Shown here: in pieces, positions 51,543 through 52,091 of the stretch
How positions within the stretch are numbered: position 1 is the first letter of the stretch
Layout: the number at the start of each line of letters is the position of its first letter
Origin: Candidatus Thorarchaeota archaeon
GTDB lineage: Archaea > Asgardarchaeota > Thorarchaeia > Thorarchaeales > Thorarchaeaceae
DNA: 64,000 nt
NCBI GenBank assembly: GCA_018335335.1
Contig: JAGXKG010000002.1
Coordinates: forward strand, 1 to 64,000
Direction: 5' to 3'
The notes under the pieces: model-generated
What the model was told of the DNA's origin: nothing
The model's database searches: none
What the model saw: the letters and a program-made list of their open reading frames with translations, nothing else
Translations under genes and position numbers: made by a program

Positions 51543-51620
51543 GGGGCCGTAGTCTAGTCTGGATAAGGCACCAGCCTCCGGAGTTGGTAATCCCCGGTTC
51601 AAATCCGGGCGGTCCCGCCA
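51543..51620 (+). tRNA. tRNA-Arg (anticodon CCG)
   Basis: 78 bases including encoded CCA. Acceptor GGGGCCG pairs with CGGTCCC (one G-T), anticodon stem CCAGC/GTTGG with loop CTCCGGA, so the anticodon is CCG, reading CGG. T arm CCCGG-TTCAAAT-CCGGG, discriminator G. No intron. A T-rich stretch follows (CTCTTTTTGATTTC). Very similar to the tRNA-Arg at 51982. Confidence 0.95.
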
Positions 51621-51710: not shown

Positions 51711-51899
51711 ATGAGCTCAAAATTCGAAGAAGTCATCTCTAAATACGAAAAGAAACTGAATAGTGTCCCAGGAAATTCGGTTCTTGAGTATTTAGCAGAG
51801 GGTGAGAGTTTCCTAATCGACACCTCAGATTGTTTGCTCCGTGTTACCAAACGCAATGGACGGGCTGAAGTAGCCATGGTTGAAATCCCTGTTCCGTGA
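51711..51899 (+). CDS. Small hypothetical protein
   Basis: 62 residues starting MSSKFEEVISKYEKKLNSV, then a beta-strand-like section (SFLIDTSDCLLRVTKRNG, AEVAMVEI). Helix followed by a three-stranded sheet suggests a small folded protein, perhaps DNA-binding or regulatory. No family recognised. A TATA box precedes it, and it lies between the two tRNA-Arg genes. Confidence 0.6.
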   Translation: MSSKFEEVISKYEKKLNSVPGNSVLEYLAEGESFLIDTSDCLLRVTKRNGRAEVAMVEIPVP

Positions 51900-51950: not shown

Positions 51951-51960
51951 GTCTATAAGA
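51951..51960 (+). promoter_or_regulatory. TATA box of tRNA-Arg(GCG)
   Basis: GTCTATAAGA lies about 26 bases before the mature tRNA start at 51982, an ideal archaeal position. Confidence 0.55.
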
Positions 51961-51981: not shown

Positions 51982-52091
51982 GGGGCCGTAGTCTAGCCTG
52001 GACTTTCAGAGGACGACCTTCTGGAAGAGGCAGATAAGGCACCAGCCTGCGGAGTTGGTAATCCCCGGTTCGAATCCGGGCGGTCCCGCCA
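51982..52091 (+). tRNA. tRNA-Arg (anticodon GCG) with D-loop intron
   Basis: 110 bases; after removal of a 32-base intron it is 78 bases with CCA. Acceptor GGGGCCG/CGGTCCC, anticodon stem CCAGC/GTTGG with loop CTGCGGA (anticodon GCG, reads CGC/CGU), T arm CCCGG-TTCGAAT-CCGGG. It differs from the tRNA-Arg(CCG) at 51543 by only a few bases. The intron is in the D loop, a non-canonical archaeal position. Confidence 0.93.
52002..52033 (+). other. 32-base bulge-helix-bulge intron in the D loop of tRNA-Arg(GCG)
   Basis: Exon GCCT (51996-51999) pairs with intron AGGC (52028-52031) to make the 4-bp central helix. The 3-base bulges are GGA (52000-52002) and AGA (52032-52034). The intron folds into a 10-bp hairpin (CTTTCAGAGG with CCTTCTGGAAG). 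Cutting each bulge between its second and third base removes exactly 52002-52033 and restores the D loop seen in the neighbouring tRNA gene. Confidence 0.88.

Follow-up and report, generated by a model that had tools for sequence, protein, structure and literature searches.

The window (the whole 64,000-nt stretch analysed, contig JAGXKG010000002.1 of assembly GCA_018335335.1) comes from a Candidatus Thorarchaeota archaeon of the Asgard group and carries two neighbouring tRNA-Arg genes on its forward strand. The second of these, tRNA-Arg(GCG) at 51982-52091, has a D loop that is interrupted by a 32-nt insertion at 19/20. The two genes and the elements discussed below are as follows:

51543..51620, + strand: tRNA-Arg(CCG), intronless, the comparison gene
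51952..51959, + strand: TATA-like box TCTATAAG, 23-30 bases 5' of tRNA-Arg(GCG), found in the sister species too
51982..52001, + strand: 5' exon of tRNA-Arg(GCG), positions 1-19, 20 nt, ending ...GCCTGG, one base off the CCG gene
51996..51999, + strand: exon strand of the central helix, GCCT, 4 bp, covarying with 52028-52031 in related genes
52000..52002, + strand: 5' bulge GGA, predicted to be cut between GG and A
52002..52033, + strand: intron ACTTTCAGAGGACGACCTTCTGGAAGAGGCAG, 32 nt, between positions 19 and 20, common to the sister species G001
52003..52027, + strand: intron hairpin, 52003-52012 with 52018-52027, 10 bp (two G-U), loop of 5
52028..52031, + strand: intron strand of the central helix, AGGC, 4 bp, identified by covariation
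52032..52034, + strand: 3' bulge AGA, predicted to be cut between AG and A, closed in the free minimum-energy fold via AGAU:GUCU
52034..52091, + strand: 3' exon of tRNA-Arg(GCG), 58 nt, with encoded CCA; anticodon GCG at 52049-52051

The intron boundary can be moved by one A with the product unchanged. Removal of the insert leaves an intact 78-nt tRNA-Arg(gcg), which ARAGORN reports at full length from the spliced sequence; from the genomic sequence the same program places the 5' end inside the intron and calls a gene at 52014-52087, and the unspliced gene falls below the gathering score of the Rfam tRNA model. The coordinates, 32-base length, GCCT:AGGC helix, GGA and AGA triplets, 10-bp hairpin and 78-nt restoration given in the preliminary description were all correct. 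The spliced gene differs from its CCG neighbour at 3 of 78 positions (string positions 16, 36 and 59, the second of these in the anticodon). A 62-aa ORF (51711-51899) lies between the two Arg tRNA genes and has a counterpart at the equivalent site of the sister species (L081).

GGA and AGA lie on opposite strands, on either side of the central helix. When the intron was shuffled 200000 times, all four central pairs formed in 2.3% of cases, and all four together with at least eight intron-helix pairs in none; the fold of the precursor had a z-score of -3.8. Folding constrained to the cloverleaf arms gave -46.5 kcal/mol when both bulges were kept open and -48.7 kcal/mol for the best alternative, which is ∼2.2 kcal/mol more stable. 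In this alternative the 3' bulge is lost to pairing of AGAU with the D-stem strand GUCU, whereas the hairpin, the central helix and the 5' bulge remain. Given the cloverleaf arms, the strict bulge-helix-bulge (BHB) structure is not the minimum-energy fold of the precursor and had a probability of ∼0.03, an estimate from nearest-neighbour folding that leaves tRNA tertiary contacts and protein out. In the sister species ACAU replaces AGAU and the minimum-energy fold is the open form; since ACAU cannot pair with GUCU, the competing pairing is not conserved.

Features of archaeal BHB introns found here are an intact tRNA on removal, a 4-bp exon-intron central helix and 3-nt bulges. The strict (hBHBh') arrangement, in which the outer helix is stable and neither bulge is closed, was not found in tRNA-Arg(GCG), where the outer helix comprises 0-2 bp and, with the D stem formed, at most one isolated A-U pair beside the central helix. 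Based on this weak outer helix and the closure of the 3' bulge in the free fold, the motif is assigned to the relaxed HBh' type, a recognised class of archaeal BHB introns (PMC6379350), and the earlier wording of a "clean bulge-helix-bulge" was too strong.

The pairing between exon and intron was followed across 36 Arg genes in which the same D-loop site holds an insert. Perfect central helices were formed in 22 of these genes, compared with 6.9 ± 2.1 after permutation (maximum 15; none of 20000 permutations reached 22), and 124 of the 144 central pairs were formed against a permutation mean of 99.6. Among 24 distinct Thorarchaeal exon/intron combinations, 15 were perfect versus 4.6 when permuted, and none of 50000 permutations reached 15; these permutations ignore the kinship of the sequences, and several independent double changes are present. 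The matched 4-mers were GCCT/AGGC, GTCT/AGGC (one G-U), GTAT/ATAC, GCAT/ATGC, GCCG/CGGC, GCTT/AAGC and GCCA/TGGC. Some of the insert-bearing relatives form only two or three of the four central pairs, and the motif fit is uneven in distant or outgroup matches (Hela, L109; Sif, L118; Diapherotrites, L119). Among relatives, the introns range from 26 to 34 nt and differ freely in sequence, with only the BHB-type pairing kept. At the level of sequence comparison, we consider the covariation strong evidence for selected splicing.

The CCG-GCG gene pair is syntenic, with a spacing of ∼430-480 bases in many genera, and the sister species carries an intron in the orthologous, syntenic GCG gene, of which the 3' exon is identical. 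The GCG intron was present at 19/20 in genera g1 (both species), g2, g8, g10 and g12, whereas the GCG gene was intact in g3, g4, g5, g6, g9, g11 and g13. Inserts at the same D-loop site were found in GCG, TCG, CCG, CCT and TCT Arg genes. A pattern scan of 228 genomes of the phylum, from 62 genera, located such inserts in 24 genomes and 10 genera, and the reversed control pattern gave no matches in the same scan. Two of the 24 genomes (G135 and G030) fall outside the Thorarchaeal family and show an uneven motif fit. In a scan of the whole collection, nearly all named records with such a gene were Candidatus Thorarchaeota, with which the genome of the window groups; two Desulfurococcales records and one Nitrospirae record also matched, and were dropped as due to chance or to a gene start downstream of CTAG.

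Interrupted tRNA genes are common in the genome itself. The census, a search with the Rfam tRNA model combined with a T-arm/CCA pattern, is incomplete, with Ser, Ile and Trp genes missing from it, and found 23 of the 37 genes examined to be interrupted, with ∼10 introns at 37/38 and ∼14 elsewhere, the latter count being approximate and liable to move by one or two. Introns in the D arm or at its start were found in Arg-GCG, Pro-CGG, Pro-GGG, Pro-TGG, His, Asp and Glu-CTC, and introns near the variable arm in Val-TAC, Leu-CAG and Leu-GAG; the introns of the Asp, Glu-CTC and Phe genes were placed by hand, and the exact positions in Leu, Val, Glu-CTC and Pro-GGG are uncertain. T-arm introns were found in Gly-CCC (53/54), Lys-TTT and Thr-CGT (both 59/60) and Met(CAT) (58/59), genes for which the Rfam model matches were partial or low-scoring. 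Asp(GTC) seems to be interrupted a second time, at 37/38. The genes with T-arm introns, and those with D-arm introns other than Arg-GCG for which a location is given, are:

G000:C1:219760 (L048): Lys(TTT), T-arm intron
G000:C1:38672 (L046): Thr(CGT), T-arm intron
G000:C1:135109 (L050): Met(CAT), T-arm intron
G000:C1:285154 (L047): Gly(CCC), T-arm intron
G000:C1:192269 (L043), C1:294285 (L180) and C1:403508 (L184): all three Pro tRNAs, D-arm introns
G000:C2:110703 (L189): His(GTG), D-arm intron
G000:C1:220256 (L170): Asp(GTC), D-arm intron

With ∼14 non-canonical introns in this one genome and same-site Arg inserts in 10 genera, the earlier view that a D-loop intron would be notable in such a lineage could not be upheld.

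An insertion of this kind might have killed the gene, leaving a pseudogene and the CGU/CGC codons to be read by another tRNA, and standard tools do indeed call a truncated gene only. However, the exons are intact, the CCA and the TATA box are kept, the sister species shares the arrangement, and the exon-intron pairing covaries. Moreover, this is the only gene of its anticodon found in the assembly, which is 97% complete, and among the 225 Arg codons of 11 nearby genes, 54 are CGU/CGC; with a sole GCG gene found and these codons in ordinary use, a functional gene is very probably required. We therefore regard a pseudogene as very improbable.

The genome encodes the enzymes expected for splicing. 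Two PF01974 proteins were found, and two such genes are present in nearly all of the 39 genomes searched, this one included. The best match of the alpha subunit was the Aeropyrum pernix EndA alpha subunit (3p1z; E 1e-52), with an alignment that runs gaplessly through the Crenarchaea-specific loop (CSL) and retains the equivalent of Lys44 and the catalytic Y/H/K. The beta subunit is without the CSL and without the catalytic His, as expected of a structural subunit. The architecture that had been proposed for checking is accordingly one of two subunit genes with the catalytic triad in alpha only, and the versatile endonuclease that the preliminary description had called for has a predicted counterpart in this CSL-bearing alpha subunit, with its lysine, together with beta. 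RtcB, the archaeal tRNA ligase, is also encoded (E 6e-181). The CSL confers broad specificity on crenarchaeal enzymes (PMC6379350). Its lysine was present in 25 of 25 Asgard alpha sequences aligned (L001-L020, L202, L208-L211), and the occurrence of the loop throughout the sampled Asgard genomes means that it is not specific to Crenarchaea.

The presence of these enzymes also bears on the possibility that the mature tRNA retains the 32 bases as an extended D loop, for which the stable free fold of the unspliced RNA could be cited. Such a retained element would have to be 26-34 nt long and variable in sequence, with nothing but BHB-type pairing kept, and to be missing from the orthologues of most genera, and we give this explanation even less credence than a pseudogene. 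An assembly or binning artefact, conceivable in a draft of 176 contigs, is the least probable of all, as a second, independently obtained genome from this genus carries the same intron at the syntenic place and D-loop introns occur at the same site in records from many separate studies.

The intron is thus real and, judging from the comparative evidence, very probably spliced. We are highly confident that the 32 bases represent a proteinaceously spliced archaeal tRNA intron at 19/20, with a relaxed HBh' motif, processed by the EndA/RtcB route. In the pathway that we propose, exon GCCT of the transcript would pair with AGGC near the 3' end of the intron, the intron core forming the 10-bp hairpin; an alpha-beta endonuclease with the CSL and its lysine, presumably assembled as alpha2-beta2, would cut between GG and A in the 5' bulge and between AG and A in the 3' bulge; and RtcB would join the exons into the 78-nt tRNA. 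In the Thorarchaeal lineage, D-loop introns would come and go among Arg isoacceptors, perhaps with some spread from one isoacceptor to another.

Such spread is suggested by similarities between introns of different genes. The GCG intron of this genome (G000) is 84% identical both to the GCG intron and to the TCG intron of the sister species (G001), while the G000 TCG gene, likewise located near the EndA beta gene, is intronless. Similar intron pairs were also found for CCG/GCG in G020 (74%) and TCG/GCG in G002 (72%), and none of 5000 shuffles matched the scores of the similar introns in G000/G001, G020 or G002. Overall, the similarity between isoacceptor introns within a genome averaged 0.61, versus 0.57 between genomes, and only these three pairs stand out. 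The exon bases beside the intron stay distinct (GTCT in TCG, GCCT in GCG), and the retention of these flanking differences would fit an intron-sized copying step. It is an even chance, in our estimation, that D-loop introns of Thorarchaeia move between Arg isoacceptor genes by intron-sized copying, for example through reverse splicing or conversion over a very short tract. The similarities could also stem from short gene conversion, or from a common ancestral intron that was later lost in some genes. Copying of introns between tRNAs has been described for Thermoproteales (PMC4033280). Since nothing stood out when the non-Arg introns of the genome were compared for similarity, genome-wide transposition is not claimed. 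The tRNA-Arg(CCG) and (GCG) genes of G020:C96 (L095), which have similar D-loop introns, are interrupted in the T loop too, so that each probably contains a second intron.

The preliminary description had placed D-loop introns mainly in Thermoproteales. This is too narrow, as non-canonical introns are abundant in Crenarchaeota, Nanoarchaeota and Thaumarchaeota (PMC4090602, PMC8450103), and intron-saturated, non-canonical tRNAs of Asgard Atabeyarchaeia and Freyarchaeia were reported in 2024 (PMC11291895). Long-known non-canonical sites in archaeal tRNAs include 20/21, 53/54 and 59/60 (PMC4090602), and tRNAscan-SE 2.0 lists 673 non-canonical introns in 217 archaeal genomes (PMC8450103). The tRNA-Arg(GCG) intron extends this known pattern of oddly placed archaeal introns and breaks none. 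In the largely open-access literature searched, no paper was found that describes D-loop introns from Thorarchaeia or a CSL in an Asgard enzyme.

These data place Thermoproteales-like disruption of tRNA genes in Thorarchaeia, alongside a CSL-bearing endonuclease in all sampled Asgard genomes, and connect the type of enzyme with the freedom of intron placement in those archaea that are nearest to eukaryotes. If true, intron-sized copying would be active in a close relative of eukaryotes. There is also a practical consequence, in that such genes are truncated or missed when Asgard tRNAs are annotated with standard tools, Arg-GCG with its false 5' end being one example.

Three known systems allow comparison. 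With A. pernix EndA alpha (PDB 3p1z, 3ajv; PMC6379350) the Thorarchaeal subunit aligns over 179 residues and shares the CSL, Lys44 and the conserved catalytic Y/H/K; the host group here is Asgard, and the specificity of the Thorarchaeal enzyme is predicted from its similarity. Atabeyarchaeia and Freyarchaeia (2024) are likewise Asgard hosts with introns often at non-canonical positions, but according to the accessible text of PMC11291895, which makes no mention of the endonuclease or of Thorarchaeal tRNA introns, 92-95% of their tRNA genes are interrupted and more than half have several introns, compared with 23 of 37 here and one gene with two. The non-canonical BHB introns and intron transposition of Thermoproteales and Crenarchaeota (Sugahara 2008 and Fujishima 2010, as cited in PMC4033280 and PMC4090602) provide the nearest likeness, with short introns in the D arm, T arm, anticodon and variable regions, similar introns across tRNAs of one genome, and an alpha-beta endonuclease with the CSL. 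The Thorarchaeal case differs from these in its Asgard host, in introns that are nearly all single per gene, and in that similar introns were found at a single site, among Arg isoacceptors only.
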